This document shows, piece by piece, positions 13,797 through 18,878 of a DNA stretch of 64,000 nucleotides. The DNA lies in the NCBI RefSeq assembly GCF_000165465.1, contig NC_017455.1, forward strand, positions 682,001 to 746,000, read 5' to 3'. The notes beneath the pieces were generated by a model. That model was not told where the DNA came from. It saw only the letters and a program-made list of their open reading frames with translations, and did no database searches. Numbering within the stretch: the stretch's first letter is position 1; every line of letters starts with the position of its first letter. A program made the translations under genes and the position numbers. This DNA comes from Halanaerobium praevalens DSM 2228. Its GTDB lineage: Bacteria; Bacillota; Halanaerobiia; Halanaerobiales; Halanaerobiaceae.

Positions 13797-14720
13797 ATGG
13801 AACAAAGTTATACAACTTATTTTGCTGAAATTTATGATCAAATAATGGAAAGTGTTCCTTATGATTATTGGTATAGATATTTACAAGATCTTTTAATTTA
13901 TTATCAGCAAGAGCCAAAAAAAATATTAGAATTAGCTGCTGGAACTTCTAATATGACTTTAAGATTAATTGAGTTAGAGAGTTTAAATCAAATTACTGCT
14001 TTAGATTTATCTTCTGCCATGATTACTAAAGCTCAAGAAAAACTAGAGTATAAATTACAGGAAAGTAATTCTTTTAAAAAATATTCTGTAAAAGATAGGT
14101 TTAAATATTTAATTGAGCAAGATAAAAGGAAATTTTCTCTTCAATTTGAGGTTCAAGATATGAAAGATTTTTATTTTAAAAATCAATTTGATTTAATAGT
14201 TTCTTTTTTCGATAGTTTGAATTATTTGACAGAAAAAGCAGAACTAGAAGCTTGTTTTAAAAATGCAGCTAATTCTTTAACTGAAAACGGATTATTTATT
14301 TTTGATTTGAATTCAATCGGTAGAATAAAAACTATTGCAGAAAAATCTGTAGTATTTGAAGATCCAAGTTATGAATGCTTTTGGCAAGATATTGTTAATA
14401 AAGACAAAAATTTATGGAAAGTAAAGTTAAAAATTTGTCCAAATAACAAAGCACTGCCTTGTTTTGAGGAAGTTCATACTGAGCGAGGTTATAAAATTTC
14501 TACTGTTTTAGATTTGCTTGCTAATAGTGGGTTTCAGGCTGTAGATGTTTATAATGCTTTTAGTTTTGCTCAGGGTAAAAACAATTCAGATCGTCTTTAT
14601 TTTGTAGCTGCTAAAGCTCAATCTAGATTAGAGAAAAATCAAGGCTTATTAAAAAAGATATATTTTAATGCCAAAAATAGAGTTGACTATTTTTTAGTTA
14701 ATTTAAAATATTTATTTTAA
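13797..14720 (+). CDS. Class I SAM-dependent methyltransferase, substrate unknown
   Basis: A 307-aa protein with a Rossmann methyltransferase fold. Motif I is ILELAAGTSNMTLRL (about residues 42-56), the acidic residue of motif II is in TALDLSSAM, and the motif IV region is FDLIVSFFDSLNYL. The N-terminal YFAEIYDQIMESVPYDYW is typical of a family often annotated as class I methyltransferases acting on small molecules. It has an insertion of about 30 residues between motifs II and III. It starts nine bases after engB and ends at a two-way terminator. I cannot name the substrate. Confidence 0.85.
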   Translation: MEQSYTTYFAEIYDQIMESVPYDYWYRYLQDLLIYYQQEPKKILELAAGTSNMTLRLIELESLNQITALDLSSAMITKAQEKLEYKLQESNSFKKYSVKDRFKYLIEQDKRKFSLQFEVQDMKDFYFKNQFDLIVSFFDSLNYLTEKAELEACFKNAANSLTENGLFIFDLNSIGRIKTIAEKSVVFEDPSYECFWQDIVNKDKNLWKVKLKICPNNKALPCFEEVHTERGYKISTVLDLLANSGFQAVDVYNAFSFAQGKNNSDRLYFVAAKAQSRLEKNQGLLKKIYFNAKNRVDYFLVNLKYLF

Positions 14721-14755: not shown

Positions 14756-14791
14756 AAAAAAAGCAAGAGCTAATTGGCTCCTGCTTTTTTT
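14756..14791. terminator. Two-way terminator between convergent genes
   Basis: AAAAAAAGCA and GAGC pair with GCTC and TGCTTTTTTT across a six-base loop with one A-C mismatch. The A-tract on one side and the T-tract on the other allow it to serve both the methyltransferase and the minus-strand dehydrogenase. Confidence 0.85.
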
Positions 14792-14799
14792 AATAATAA

Positions 14800-16581
14800 T
14801 TATTTTTTATTTACTACTTGTTTTAAATCTTGATCTTTATTTTTAGGTCTCCGCCAAATTATCTTTTTCAACCACGGTAAAACATAATAATCTAGGCCAA
14901 AAGAACGTCCAGAACCAATTAAGGCAATAGAAGCGAAAAAGAACCAAAATAATGGACTAAAGTGACCTGGATATTCACTAGACCAGTGTGCATATTGACC
15001 AGCTAATAAAAAGTTAACTGAAAAAGCAGCTGATCCTAAAGCACCAAGTGAGGCAAATAAGCCTGAAATTAAAGAAAGACCAATTCCGATCATACTTAGA
15101 GTGACTACAATTTGGAAGAAAAGTGGAAACTTAAAGATAATTGCTTCATTTAACCAGACATACCAGCCAACTGCATAATCACCAATGGGAGAAGCAGAAG
15201 CTCCAGAAACTAAATAATCTCCACTAAATAACCAGCCATCTCTTACTTTTGAGTAGCCTTCATAAAGCCACATTATTCCTACAAAAACTCTTAAAAGAAC
15301 TAACCAAAGCGATCTAGATTTTTGACTCACAAAACCGAAAAGCTGAGCTAATAAACCTTTTTGAGAAGCTTGTTCCTCCAGATATTCTGAAATTAAACTA
15401 TATGTTTCTTTAATTCCACCTAGTTCAAAACGATAAAACATATTAACTGAATGTTTCATAAACATAGCTGGAATACCAGTTAAAGATAAACCCATTACTT
15501 CAGCTACAGCATAACTGCTTCCCACTGAAACCATTACTCCATGTAAGTTTGGATCAAGTTCTTCTTTATCAGCACCTTTAATTTCTGCCACAATATTTTT
15601 AGCAGCACATTGACCAGTTTGTTGGGCTGATTCAACTAAAGCTGGTAAAATTTTATCTTTTTTCCATGGTGCTGCTGCATTATCACCAATGGCATAAACA
15701 TTGGAATAATTTTCTGTTTGTAGATATTTATTAACTTTAATTCTGTTTGCTTTATCAGTTTCTAAGCCAGAGTTAGCAGCGAAATCTGCAGCCTCCACTC
15801 CACAAGTCCAAATAATAGTTTTAGCCTTAATTTCTTCTCCATTATTTAAAATTAATTTATCTGCTTCTATTTTATTGACAAATTCGCCTGTTTTAACATT
15901 TACTCCCTTTTTCTTCATGTAATTCATAGCTTTTTTTACTAATTTTTCATTAAGGGAAGGAAGAATTCTATCAAGGCCTTCAAAATTATAAATTTCTATT
16001 TCATTCCAAGGAATATTATATTTTTTGCTATACTCAGTTAGCCATTCAATTAATTCACCCACCATTTCAACTCCAGTAAAGCCTCCACCAGCAACTGCAA
16101 ATGATAAAAGCTCTTTTCTTTGATCAGGTTCATCAGTAATTCTAGCTTCTTGCATGCATTTTTTTACATGATTTTTAATATTTAATGAGTCAGCAATCGA
16201 CCATAATGTAAAAGCGTGTTCATCGACGCCTTTGACTCCACAATCACTTGCTTTACTACCTGTACCCATAATTAAATAATCATAATTATATTGGTGATTG
16301 CTAGAACTTAAAACTTGTTTCTCAAAATCGATATCATTTATTTCATCTTGGACTAAATTAACTCTTGTGGAAGAAAAAATTCTCTCTAAGTTGACTTTAA
16401 TAGCATCTTCTTCAATTCTATTACCTGCTAACTCATGTAATTCAGTTAGTAAAGTATGATACGGATTCTTGTCAATTAGAGTAATTGTAGAATCAGGATA
16501 TTTTTTTAACTTTTTATGTAGAGTTTGCCCAGCAGCTACTCCTCCATAACCTGCTCCCAAAATAATGATGTTATTACTCAA
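14800..16581 (-). CDS. NDH-2-type NAD(P)H dehydrogenase fused to a DoxX-like membrane domain
   Basis: A 593-aa two-part protein. Residues 1-400 are a pyridine nucleotide-disulfide type flavoprotein like NDH-2: FAD-binding IIILGAGYGGVAAG at the N-terminus, second nucleotide-binding site AVAGGGFTGVEMVGEL near 165, and VYAIGDNAAA near 295. Residues about 425-575 hold four hydrophobic helices of DoxX type (LVLLRVFVGIMWLYEGYSKV, then a 45-residue loop and three more helices). NDH-2 passes electrons from NADH to quinone at the membrane without pumping. The start is TTG with AAGGGGGTAAC upstream. It is divergent from apbE and a polyprenyl synthase, which supports a quinone-linked role. The quinone and the DoxX function are inferred. 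Confidence 0.85.
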   Translation of the reverse strand: MSNNIIILGAGYGGVAAGQTLHKKLKKYPDSTITLIDKNPYHTLLTELHELAGNRIEEDAIKVNLERIFSSTRVNLVQDEINDIDFEKQVLSSSNHQYNYDYLIMGTGSKASDCGVKGVDEHAFTLWSIADSLNIKNHVKKCMQEARITDEPDQRKELLSFAVAGGGFTGVEMVGELIEWLTEYSKKYNIPWNEIEIYNFEGLDRILPSLNEKLVKKAMNYMKKKGVNVKTGEFVNKIEADKLILNNGEEIKAKTIIWTCGVEAADFAANSGLETDKANRIKVNKYLQTENYSNVYAIGDNAAAPWKKDKILPALVESAQQTGQCAAKNIVAEIKGADKEELDPNLHGVMVSVGSSYAVAEVMGLSLTGIPAMFMKHSVNMFYRFELGGIKETYSLISEYLEEQASQKGLLAQLFGFVSQKSRSLWLVLLRVFVGIMWLYEGYSKVRDGWLFSGDYLVSGASASPIGDYAVGWYVWLNEAIIFKFPLFFQIVVTLSMIGIGLSLISGLFASLGALGSAAFSVNFLLAGQYAHWSSEYPGHFSPLFWFFFASIALIGSGRSFGLDYYVLPWLKKIIWRRPKNKDQDLKQVVNKK

Positions 16582-16740
16582 TTTTGTTACCCCCTTAAGA
16601 TAGTTGTTTAGCTATTTCTATTAATTTACTTTTTTAATTAAATTAAAATTAAGTTTGAGTTAAATTGAATAGAAAAAAAGCTAAATATATATTGTAAATA
16701 TTTAAAAATAAGTCAATGAAGTTAATATTTTCACACTTAA

Positions 16741-16768
16741 ATTATAGCATATTTAAATTAAATTGCAA
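16741..16768 (-). promoter_or_regulatory. Promoter of the NDH-2-DoxX gene
   Basis: On the minus strand TTGCAA (16763-16768) and TATAAT (16741-16746) are 16 bp apart, with TGC directly before the -10 box (extended -10). It implies a leader of about 150 bases. The 301-base divergent region 16582-16882 otherwise shows only AT-rich DNA. Confidence 0.6.
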
Positions 16769-16790
16769 GAAAAGTACTCAAGTTTAATCT

Positions 16791-16818
16791 TTGCAAAAAT
16801 AATTAGATATGATAAAAT
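16791..16818 (+). promoter_or_regulatory. Promoter of apbE
   Basis: TTGCAA (16791-16796) and TAAAAT (16813-16818), 16 bp apart, with TGA before the -10 box. The two divergent promoters have identical -35 boxes separated by 22 bp, so shared regulation is possible. Confidence 0.5.
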
Positions 16819-16882
16819 ATAATTGATTTACTAAAGATTAAATTATTTTAAATAATAAATTAGAAAATTAGGAAGTGGTAAC

Positions 16883-17929
16883 TTGTCTAAAAAGAAAAAA
16901 ATATTGTTATTTAGTATTTTAATTATGATGATACTTTTTTTAACTGCCTGTAATAATCAATCTGAGTTAAAAAAAGTAGAAGATAATGCTTTTTTAATGG
17001 ATACCTTAGTTAAGGTTAGAGCTCATGGAAATGGTGCTGAAAAGGCTGTTAAAGAGAGTATTGATCAAATAGAAGCCATTGAAAATTTAATGAGTAAAAC
17101 AGTAACAAAAAGTGATGTTTATAAACTAAATCATAATCCGAAAAAAGAAATTATAATAGCTCCAGAAACAATGGTAGTTTTAAAAAAAGCTAAAAAATAT
17201 GCTAATTTAACTGCTGGTGATTTTGATCCTACTTTAGGAGCTTTAGTTAATTTATGGGGAATAGGAACTAAAAATCCAACTGTACCTCAGCCTTCTGCAA
17301 TTGAAAAAGCTTTAAAAAATACTGGTTATCAGTACTTAGATCTAAATGAAGAATCTGCTAAATTAACACAAGCTAAAGTAAAAATTGATTTAGGTGGCAT
17401 AGTTAAGGGTTATGCTGCTGATAGTGTGCGAAAAATTATGAAAAAAAATGAAGTAAAACACGCTTTTGTTAACCTTGGTGGAAATGTTTTAGTTATTGGT
17501 GATAAGGTTGATGGCTCAGCTTGGAAAATAGGAATTCAAGATCCAAGAAAAGGAAGAGGTTCTGTAATGGCTATAGTTGCAGCTAAAGATATGACAATAG
17601 TAACTTCAGGTAATTATGAAAGATACTTTGAAGAAAATGGTAAATTATATCACCATATTATTGATCCTAAAACTGGTTATCCAGCTCAAAATAATCTGTT
17701 AAGTGTAAGTATTATTAGCAGTAGCTCATTTGATGCTGATGCTCTTTCAACCTCAATTTATGTGATGGGTTTAAAAAAAGGAATGAAATTTATCGAAACC
17801 ATTGATGAAGTTGAAGCTATGTTTATAACTAAAGAGCTTGATGTTTATCTTTCTTCTGGCTTAAAAGAGTTAGTTGAAATAAAAAATAAAGATTTCAATT
17901 TAATTGAAGGTGAGTATTTTGCTAATTGA
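16883..17929 (+). CDS. apbE: FAD:protein FMN transferase, lipoprotein
   Basis: ApbE family enzyme (348 aa) that attaches FMN from FAD through a phosphoester to Thr/Ser of membrane redox proteins such as Rnf or Nqr subunits. An N-terminal signal peptide ends in the lipobox LTAC, so it should be anchored outside the membrane. Family features include MDTLVKV, the KIDLGGIVKGYAAD box, AFVNLGGNVLVIG, HIIDPKTGYPA and a C-terminal ADALSTSIYVMG Mg/FAD-binding segment. TTG 16883 follows AGGAAGTGG. Its last 11 bases overlap the polyprenyl synthase gene. No target with a flavinylation motif is visible in the window. Confidence 0.93.
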   Translation: MSKKKKILLFSILIMMILFLTACNNQSELKKVEDNAFLMDTLVKVRAHGNGAEKAVKESIDQIEAIENLMSKTVTKSDVYKLNHNPKKEIIIAPETMVVLKKAKKYANLTAGDFDPTLGALVNLWGIGTKNPTVPQPSAIEKALKNTGYQYLDLNEESAKLTQAKVKIDLGGIVKGYAADSVRKIMKKNEVKHAFVNLGGNVLVIGDKVDGSAWKIGIQDPRKGRGSVMAIVAAKDMTIVTSGNYERYFEENGKLYHHIIDPKTGYPAQNNLLSVSIISSSSFDADALSTSIYVMGLKKGMKFIETIDEVEAMFITKELDVYLSSGLKELVEIKNKDFNLIEGEYFAN

Positions 17930-18878
17930 AGATAAGTTTTATCAAAAAATATGTAATAAATTAAATGAAAATATATTAGAAATCACTAATTCTAAAAGAA
18001 GAATTATTAATGAAGCTGTTTCTGATTTAATTAAAGGTGGGGGAAAAAAATTAAGACCATTTTTAATGTTTTTAGCTGCTTCTTTTGGAGATTATGATCA
18101 AGAAAAACTGCTTCAATTAGGAAGTGGAATTGAATTGTTACATATGTCATCACTTTTACATGATGATGTAATAGATAATGCTAAATTGAGAAGAGGAAAA
18201 AAGACTGCTCAACATAAGTTTGGTAAAGAAGAAGCAGTGTTTATTGGTGATTTTTTATTATCACGTAGTTTTAATATTTTCTTTAAATATTTAGATAAAT
18301 CAACTTTAGGCAAAATGAATAAAAATGTCAGTCTTTTATGTGAAGGTGAAATTGAACAATCTGAAAAAAAATTTGATTTAGAAATAAGCATGAGAGATTA
18401 TTACCGACGGATTAGACATAAAACTGCTTTATTTTTTGCTTTAAGTAGTTACCTTGGAGCTTATGTAAGTGGAGTTAGAGGTAAAAAATTAAATTTATTA
18501 TATAAATTAGGCTTAGAAATAGGGATGGCTTTTCAGATCAAAGATGATTTGCTTGATTTTGAAGGTGAAGAAGAAGAGACTGGTAAAATTTTAGCCCAAG
18601 ATCTAAAAGAAGGAATAATTACTTTACCTGTGATTTTACTTTTTAATAAAGAAAAATATAGAAATAAGTACAAAAGATACAATAACAAAAAACTTGAGCC
18701 TGAAGTAGTTGCAAGCATTATAGCAGATTTGAAAGTTGCAGGAGCTTTAGATGAAAGCCAAGATATTCTTCTGCGTTTTATTAATAGAGTTAAGAAATAT
18801 CTTGAACAGTTACCAAATAATAAAGCAAAAAAAAGATTGAAAAAATTAGTTGAGGCTCAAATAGAAAGAAAATTTTAG
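17919..18878 (+). CDS. Long-chain polyprenyl diphosphate synthase
   Basis: Trans-prenyltransferase of 319 aa that condenses isopentenyl diphosphate units. The first aspartate-rich motif is DDVID in LLHDDVIDNAKLRRG, the second is DDLLD in FQIKDDLLDF; GGGKKLRP near the N-terminus is also conserved. Small Ser residues at positions -4 and -5 before the first motif favour a long product, such as a quinone side chain, over farnesyl or geranylgeranyl. I chose TTG 17919 because AAGGTGA lies six bases upstream; earlier TTG/GTG codons are possible. It overlaps apbE and sits across from an NDH-2 gene, consistent with menaquinone biosynthesis. Confidence 0.88.
   Translation: MLIEDKFYQKICNKLNENILEITNSKRRIINEAVSDLIKGGGKKLRPFLMFLAASFGDYDQEKLLQLGSGIELLHMSSLLHDDVIDNAKLRRGKKTAQHKFGKEEAVFIGDFLLSRSFNIFFKYLDKSTLGKMNKNVSLLCEGEIEQSEKKFDLEISMRDYYRRIRHKTALFFALSSYLGAYVSGVRGKKLNLLYKLGLEIGMAFQIKDDLLDFEGEEEETGKILAQDLKEGIITLPVILLFNKEKYRNKYKRYNNKKLEPEVVASIIADLKVAGALDESQDILLRFINRVKKYLEQLPNNKAKKRLKKLVEAQIERKF

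Follow-up and report, generated by a model that had tools for sequence, protein, structure and literature searches.

What purpose is served in an anaerobic fermenter by a gene for a membrane-anchored NADH dehydrogenase that lies back to back with genes for a flavinyltransferase and a prenyl synthase? The locus (Table 1) occupies part of the window, a 64,000-nucleotide stretch of the Halanaerobium praevalens genome, and was originally predicted to encode a quinone-using redox module of the membrane that also carries covalently bound FMN, surprising for a strict anaerobe. The kind of module was recognized correctly, but its correspondence to a known gene set was missed: the three genes quite probably form a pared-down, split, and PplA-less module for flavin-based extracellular electron transfer (FLEET/EET). 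Since FLEET serves fermenters without oxygen, the surprise falls away. A known electron-export gene set would now be placed in Halanaerobium, a genus whose members are diderm, halophilic fermenters common in oil and shale brines, where redox balance and corrosion matter in practice.

Table 1. Features of the ndh2–apbE–dmkB locus (window positions)
Feature	Positions	Strand	Remark
Inverted repeat AGCAAGAGC/GCTCCTGCT with A and T tracts	14757..14793	.	read in sequence
ndh2: predicted FLEET-type NDH-2 (aa 1-395) + DoxX-like membrane domain (aa ~420-575)	14800..16581	-	
DoxX/DoxD-like membrane domain, aa 420-575	14857..15324	-	
TM1-TM2 loop, aa 448-471	15169..15240	-	mostly low pLDDT in model
SGAS, aa 459-462, core of candidate ApbE flavinylation site	15196..15207	-	
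NDH-2 flavoprotein domain, aa 1-395	15397..16581	-	sequence, structure, motifs
Shine-Dalgarno-like AAGGGGG of ndh2	16590..16597	-	read in sequence
ndh2 promoter, TTGCAA-16-TATAAT, extended -10	16741..16768	-	predicted
apbE-dmkB promoter, TTGCAA-16-TAAAAT	16791..16818	+	predicted
apbE/fmnB: FAD:protein FMN transferase lipoprotein	16883..17929	+	
dmkB: probable long-chain-type polyprenyl diphosphate synthase, HepT-like	17919..18878	+	

Ndh2 and Its DoxX-like Membrane Domain

The minus-strand ndh2 open reading frame begins with TTG and encodes 593 residues, of which residues 4–391 match the C. thermarum NDH-2 (4nwz) with an E-value of 1.3e-68 (phmmer), and the fold agrees with that of NDH-2 at a Foldseek TM-score of 0.94 by target length. 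Two dinucleotide motifs (GAGYGG and GGGFTG) and a quinone-site-like motif (AQQTGQ) can be read in the translation. By its two-dinucleotide-binding fold and these sequence criteria, the protein is a type II NADH dehydrogenase, with the activity being predicted.

The C-terminal domain of the window protein scores 19.1 bits against DoxX (PF07681), under the curated cut-off of 23.6; across the family, however, all 57 aligned relatives, window Ndh2 included, match DoxX at E ≤ 0.1 (best 3.4e-9), 41 of the 57 match DoxD, and two relatives (L092, 37.6 bits; L134, 23.9 bits) exceed the PF07681 cut-off. The domain is therefore named DoxX-like, the resemblance holding at the family level. Thus, phmmer, Foldseek, and the family-wide DoxX matches bear out the predicted fusion of NDH-2 with a four-helix DoxX-like domain. 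The nearest solved structure is NACHO/TMEM35A (VIA-align, Z 10.5 over 121 residues), which is only moderate evidence because the domain is a helical bundle, and a Foldseek search restricted to the C-terminal domain found nothing at E ≤ 0.001. What is shared with DoxX and DoxD (thiosulfate:quinone oxidoreductase small subunit) is a helical membrane domain and sequence resemblance, whereas the window domain is fused to NDH-2 and carries a flavinylation-like motif in its TM1–TM2 loop.

Conserved Gene Neighborhoods

Among the 80 fused-Ndh2 loci with enough flanking sequence, DmkB lies within 6 kb of Ndh2 in 74, ApbE in 52, EetB in 46, and EetA in 38—compared with none of these neighbors at 20 control loci of ordinary NDH-2—and ApbE is encoded in 79 of 80 genomes that carry this type of Ndh2. 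In three Listeria loci (L118, L125, and L134), DmkA-FmnB-PplA is divergent from Ndh2-EetA-EetB-DmkB, and the Listeria and window Ndh2 proteins align through the C-terminal domain. Within Halanaerobium, Ndh2 was found in 12 of 12 genomes, and ApbE-DmkB and Ndh2 remain together across the genus.

These neighborhoods bear on the role in oxygen or oxidant defense that had been proposed from the association of DoxX with SseA and SodA in mycobacteria. Although the C-terminal domain is indeed DoxX-like, recurring thiol or superoxide neighbors were not seen around fused Ndh2, the recurring ones being ApbE, EetA, EetB, DmkB, and DmkA; furthermore, cytochrome bd was not found in this genome or in any of the 38 genomes of the order. 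Such a defensive role is thus highly improbable.

The two plus-strand genes are largely as predicted. The apbE product (348 residues) is a full-length ApbE (311.5 bits in the profile search) with an LTAC lipobox read directly in the translation, consistent with the flavinyltransferase lipoprotein originally described, and the gene is present in a single copy in the whole genome. The neighboring prenyl synthase has GerC3/HepT (TIGR02748) as its best profile, at 263 bits and under the equivalog cut-off of 456.55, and matches heptaprenyl diphosphate synthase component 2 (9kp1) with an E-value of 1.8e-57. The residues 4 and 5 positions ahead of its DDVID motif, read by eye, are both small (S, S); the enzyme is accordingly, as first proposed from the residues before this Asp motif, likely to be of the long-chain type.

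A Split, PplA-less Gene Set

One operational definition of EET loci combines an NADH dehydrogenase (K03885) that has a transmembrane helix with an ApbE or FMN_bind gene at most five genes away, the latter carrying a signal peptide or lipobox (PMC8238504). In the window, the two genes are adjacent and divergent, the dehydrogenase has NDH-2 similarity and predicted membrane helices, and the LTAC lipobox of ApbE was read by eye. On these features, the locus falls under the definition.

The remainder of the genome was examined by family profile searches and in a few selected stretches. Homologues of EetA (PF07009, 86.1 bits) and EetB (PF07456, 154.6 bits) are encoded at C1:1374474-1375410, beside rnfB, where the rnf operon ends; a DmkA-type DHNA prenyltransferase is encoded at C1:855993 (NF004752, 346.6 bits; cut-off 289). 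PplA was not found, with RnfG being the sole FMN_bind (PF04205) match in the genome. Compared with the eight-gene Listeria set, Ndh2 with a homologous C-terminal membrane domain, the ApbE/FmnB lipoprotein, and DmkB thus occur together, with apbE and ndh2 divergent as in Listeria, and DmkA, EetA, and EetB have homologues in the genome. Unlike in Listeria, there is no pplA, eetA/eetB and the prenyltransferase gene lie outside the three-gene locus, the Ndh2 is of a short-loop class, and the host is a diderm halophilic anaerobe. The EetA/EetB homologues, placed with rnf, may serve Rnf alone. The single ApbE is the only enzyme available for RnfG flavinylation; Ndh2 and DmkB are not parts of Rnf.

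FLEET loci without pplA are known from Lactococcus (PMC8837199) and Alkalibacterium pelagium (PMC10572741), and these likewise keep apbE, ndh2, and eet genes; they belong, however, to lactic acid bacteria and relatives rather than to Halanaerobiales, and in the window genome the eet genes are separated from ndh2. In L. plantarum, EET requires Ndh2, and PplA only conditionally (PMC9888254, PMC8837199). Among the lactic acid bacteria tested, iron was reduced, under the conditions used, only by species with both ndh2 and pplA (PMC8837199).

The module as predicted presupposed quinone genes and an ApbE target. Targets are present, namely RnfG, an RnfD motif, and possibly Ndh2. With regard to quinones, the de novo genes are lacking, as neither MenD nor the MqnA/MqnD family was found by family search of the genome; any quinone therefore needs an outside precursor, and the DHNA-prenyltransferase homologues are consistent with use of scavenged DHNA.

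In the proposed mechanism, Ndh2, anchored by its DoxX-like domain, would oxidize cytosolic NADH and pass the electrons to membrane (demethyl)menaquinone, the tail of which would be made by DmkB and joined to scavenged DHNA by the DmkA-type prenyltransferase. In Listeria, FAD for FmnB is exported by EetB (PMC9973259), and here it would be supplied by the EetB homologue of the rnf operon. ApbE/FmnB would then attach FMN, on the extracytosolic side, to RnfG, to the RnfD motif, and plausibly to the Ndh2 loop, and the electrons would end up on free flavins, on exogenous quinones, or on some other acceptor outside the cytosol, regenerating NAD+ in the fermenter. As Halanaerobium is diderm, true extracellular transfer needs an additional outer-membrane step. 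A literature search of titles and abstracts found no report of EET by Halanaerobium.

The same genes might instead be read without any EET module, with ApbE acting only for Rnf, the DmkB polyprenyl otherwise used, and Ndh2 only recycling NADH. The eetA–eetB pair does follow rnfB, RnfG is the only FMN_bind target, and PplA, MenD, and MqnA/D are all missing. However, this alternative would leave aside the persistence of ApbE-DmkB with Ndh2 across Halanaerobium and the wider family, the lack of such neighbors at the control loci, and the encoded DHNA-type prenyltransferase; it is considered unlikely. The electrons of NADH would in that case go to some soluble or membrane quinone.

The Ndh2 Loop as a Candidate Flavinylation Site

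The FLEET papers surveyed do not settle how electrons leaving Ndh2 cross the membrane and reach flavins on the extracytosolic side. The TM1–TM2 loop would be extracytoplasmic, provided that the NDH-2 domain is cytosolic. ApbE substrates carry the motif D-x-x-[S/T]-G-A-[S/T], in which Asp-to-Ala replacement in a model substrate had minor effects (PMC12052999). The loop of the window protein reads D-YLV-SGAS, that is, with the core present, S462 as the candidate FMN acceptor, and the conserved Asp (D455) at −7 instead of the canonical −6.

Among 111 Ndh2 relatives, a relaxed form of the motif was found at 76 loop sites in 53 proteins and never in the NDH domains, and the strict form in 21; composition shuffles of the loops gave means of 0.9 and 0.1, respectively. 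The aligned acceptor column is Ser or Thr in 56 of 57 relatives, and in the short-loop class the acceptor changes four times, between Ser and Thr only, with the Gly invariant. Expanded loops contain DAVTAAT-type repeats with up to seven relaxed sites. On this evidence, the chance that Ndh2 is itself an ApbE/FmnB substrate, with at least one covalent FMN on its outer-face loop, is judged to be even. A somewhat less probable reading takes the SGAS and DAVTAAT motifs as a plain Ala/Ser/Thr-rich linker without FMN, in line with the low complexity of the long loops, the mostly missing Asp at −6 in the short-loop class (which includes the window protein), the Ala at −3 in 23 of 48 members of that class, and the 10 of 111 loops without any core pattern; the conserved Asp-to-acceptor spacing, far above that of the shuffles, and the restriction of the acceptor to Ser/Thr beside an invariant Gly argue against it.

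If Ndh2 is flavinylated, a single polypeptide would connect NADH, FAD, and quinone with FMN outside the cytosol, expanded repeat loops would be multi-flavin wires, and the loop could stand in for PplA in species lacking it, such as H. praevalens. The position of the motif in Ndh2's own outward loop makes FMN labeling by FmnB directly testable. No report of Ndh2 flavinylation was found in the mainly open literature searched, including papers naming both Ndh2 and ApbE. For Bacillaceae that lack FMN_bind proteins (7 of 80 genomes), the idea that ApbE acts on Ndh2 alone lost ground, since four of these loci also encode small lipoproteins bearing DAVTTAS-type motifs and since ApbE has other substrates, FMN_red and Flavodoxin_4 (PMC10979944).

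Divergent Promoters and Gene Boundaries

The ndh2–apbE intergenic region measures 301 bases, as originally described, and both of its predicted promoters are kept in two other Halanaerobium species (three in all). The −35 sequence proposed to be shared is indeed identical, but a single common box is ruled out: TTGCAA occurs in two distinct boxes, 16763-16768 and 16791-16796, 28 bases apart. A candidate Rex operator downstream of the ndh2 −10 (16719-16736, a weak match with three mismatches) was dropped since such matches are not above chance, with 36 observed in the window against 53 expected. For the plus-strand prenyl synthase, whose reading frame ends at 18878 and could start at 17904 or 17919, the start is probably the TTG at 17919 after AAGGTGAG, with an 11-base overlap with the end of apbE. 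The inverted repeat downstream of ndh2 likely forms a bidirectional terminator between ndh2 and a convergent methyltransferase gene.

Identity of the three genes

The genome is a single contig (C1) of 2,309,262 bases, with the window at C1:682001-746000, and eleven further genomes are assigned to the same genus. The three genes, as read from the ORFs and the sequence, match their original description. The minus-strand product is a 593-residue protein with a C-terminal helical membrane domain and an NDH-2 domain (residues 4-391; E = 1.3e-68 against the C. thermarum enzyme, and a TM-score of 0.94 by target length), and is 83-84% identical to Ndh2 of H. kushneri and H. saccharolyticum. The apbE gene, the only one in the genome, is complete, with the lipobox LTAC by direct reading; the prenyl synthase is HepT-like, scoring under the HepT family equivalog cut-off, and a second PF00348 gene is present elsewhere. 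The predicted divergent promoters are kept in two congeners, but they do not share a -35 box: TTGCAA occurs in two separate boxes.

Searches with Ndh2 through 299 genomes from the phylum, and through GTDB contigs, gave 111 fused proteins for analysis, hosted by Bacillota-type genomes and some Spirochaetes. Flanks of 5 kb or more on each side were available for 80 loci, and within 6 kb of the fused gene these have homologues of DmkB (74/80), ApbE (52/80), EetB (46/80), EetA (38/80), and, in many, UbiA (33 and 11 for two queries); none of these is near ordinary NDH-2 genes, those with no membrane domain, at 20 control loci. Listeria was among the searched genomes: its loci show the known order of the flavin-based extracellular electron transfer (FLEET) set, and the Listeria Ndh2 alignment with the window protein extends through the C-terminal domain. 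On this evidence, the best reading of the three genes is that the fusion is Ndh2, ApbE is FmnB, and the prenyl synthase is DmkB of the FLEET system. A published operational definition of EET—a TM-containing NADH dehydrogenase at most five genes from ApbE (PMC8238504)—also covers the locus. The proposed interpretation is supported in part, with the module read as FLEET-like electron export rather than oxidant defence; the locus is a variant of an already known kind. The electron path, and any EET phenotype of the organism, we infer.

The window protein scores 19.1 bits against the DoxX profile, below the cut-off of 23.6; all 57 aligned proteins match DoxX at E <= 0.1, some above the cut-off, and 41 of them match DoxD. 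With a predicted model of the membrane domain alone (mean pLDDT 77.4), VIA-align gave NACHO/TMEM35A (Z 10.5) and the membrane portion of vitamin K-dependent carboxylase (Z 8.6) as nearest structures, values that are only moderate evidence because the matched structures are helical bundles. "DoxX-like" is the safe name.

Flavinylation-like motifs in the DoxX-like domain

In the ApbE target motif D-x-x-[S/T]-G-A-[S/T], FMN is joined to the final residue, and seven residues are enough; Asp-to-Ala mutation has a minor effect, Gly-to-Ala reduces labelling to about half, and a Ser acceptor is tolerated (PMC12052999). Provided that the NDH-2 domain lies in the cytosol, the fused proteins must have their TM1-TM2 loop facing outward. 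These loops carry the strict motif in 21 of 111 proteins (shuffle mean, 0.1) and 76 relaxed sites, D..[ST][GAST]A[ST], in 53 of 111 (shuffle mean, 0.9), with neither form found in any of the 111 NDH domains, nor in the C-terminal domain outside the loop. Because the shuffles ignore shared ancestry, these counts are not probabilities, and conservation is the argument: of the 57 aligned sequences, 56 have Ser/Thr at the acceptor position and 55 have Ala just before it. Some Clostridia and Spirochaetes have long loops of repeated DAVTAAT-like units (L064-L068, L121), with up to seven relaxed sites per protein.

A class of 48 short-loop sequences, the window protein among them, has the pattern D-x-L-V-[S/A]-G-[A/S]-[S/T], in which Gly is invariant, position -7 is Asp in 39 and Glu in 3, and the acceptor is Ser (42) or Thr (6), all four changes on the tree being between Ser and Thr. 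This pattern exceeds the canonical motif by one residue, and has Ala at -3 in 23 of 48. Ndh2 flavinylation is therefore well motivated at family level, with the window protein a candidate; this putative covalent FMN is the part that specialists would wish to see tested.

Features of the window, the genome, and other loci
Feature	Coordinates	Remark
ndh2	window 14800-16581 (-)	
apbE/fmnB	window 16883-17929 (+)	
dmkB	window 17919-18878 (+)	
SAM methyltransferase	window 13797-14720	convergent with ndh2
DHNA prenyltransferase	C1:855993	PRK06080.1-4 subfamily
Second UbiA-family gene	L007:7957-8922 (C1:348957-349922)	farther from DHNA prenyltransferase models than that of L008
Short ORF	L006:7882-8187	matches only C-terminal half of Maf (profile 88-187)
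Ndh2, much expanded loop	L065:7372-9624	tandem DAVTAAT-type repeats
Small lipoprotein	L124:12090-12656	flavinylation-like motif soon after lipobox
Small lipoprotein	L127:12421-12981	same
Small lipoprotein	L137:12131-12652	same
Small lipoprotein	L126:2306-2893	same

Differences from the Listeria system

PF07009 (EetA-like) and PF07456 (EetB-like) genes lie elsewhere in the genome, just after an rnfCDGEAB operon. Listeria EetB exports FAD for FmnB, and in Clostridia EetB frequently accompanies Rnf (PMC9973259). RnfG is the sole FMN_bind protein in the genome, and PplA is therefore absent. Between apbE and ndh2, seven loci of related Halanaerobiales and one neighbouring class (L040, L044, L161, L163, L168, L171, L172) encode a 223-234-residue protein that carries the D..[ST]GAT motif once or twice; the same interval is only about 300 bases in the window and its congeners (L073, L074), which makes PplA loss in this lineage likely. 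PplA-less FLEET loci are already known from Lactococcus (PMC8837199) and Alkalibacterium (PMC10572741).

Family searches found no MenD or MqnA/D in the genome, and no cytochrome bd in any of 38 genomes of the order. Absence of the former would fit use of external DHNA, as in L. plantarum (PMC9888254). The methyltransferase gene keeps its position across most Halanaerobiales loci read, and its product has weak UbiE/MenG similarity (PF01209, 22.4 bits; cut-off, 20.1); that it methylates a quinone is no more than a guess. The maf gene in L006 may be broken, or have its remainder in another frame.

ApbE and its substrates across genomes

ApbE is encoded in 79 of 80 genomes with fused Ndh2. The exception is a Spirochaeta assembly (G323, locus L113) in which fused Ndh2 is accompanied by 18 FMN_bind matches; it may be incomplete, and is otherwise a puzzle. 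Seven genomes have ApbE without any FMN_bind match; several of their loci encode Ndh2 with TSGAS, and other ApbE substrates are possible. In PplA-less Bacillaceae, the small lipoproteins of L124 (the one of the four scanned for FMN_bind, with no match), L127, L137, and L126 carry the motifs DAVTTAS, DTVTAAS, DVVTAAS, and DVVTTAS, and are possible PplA substitutes.
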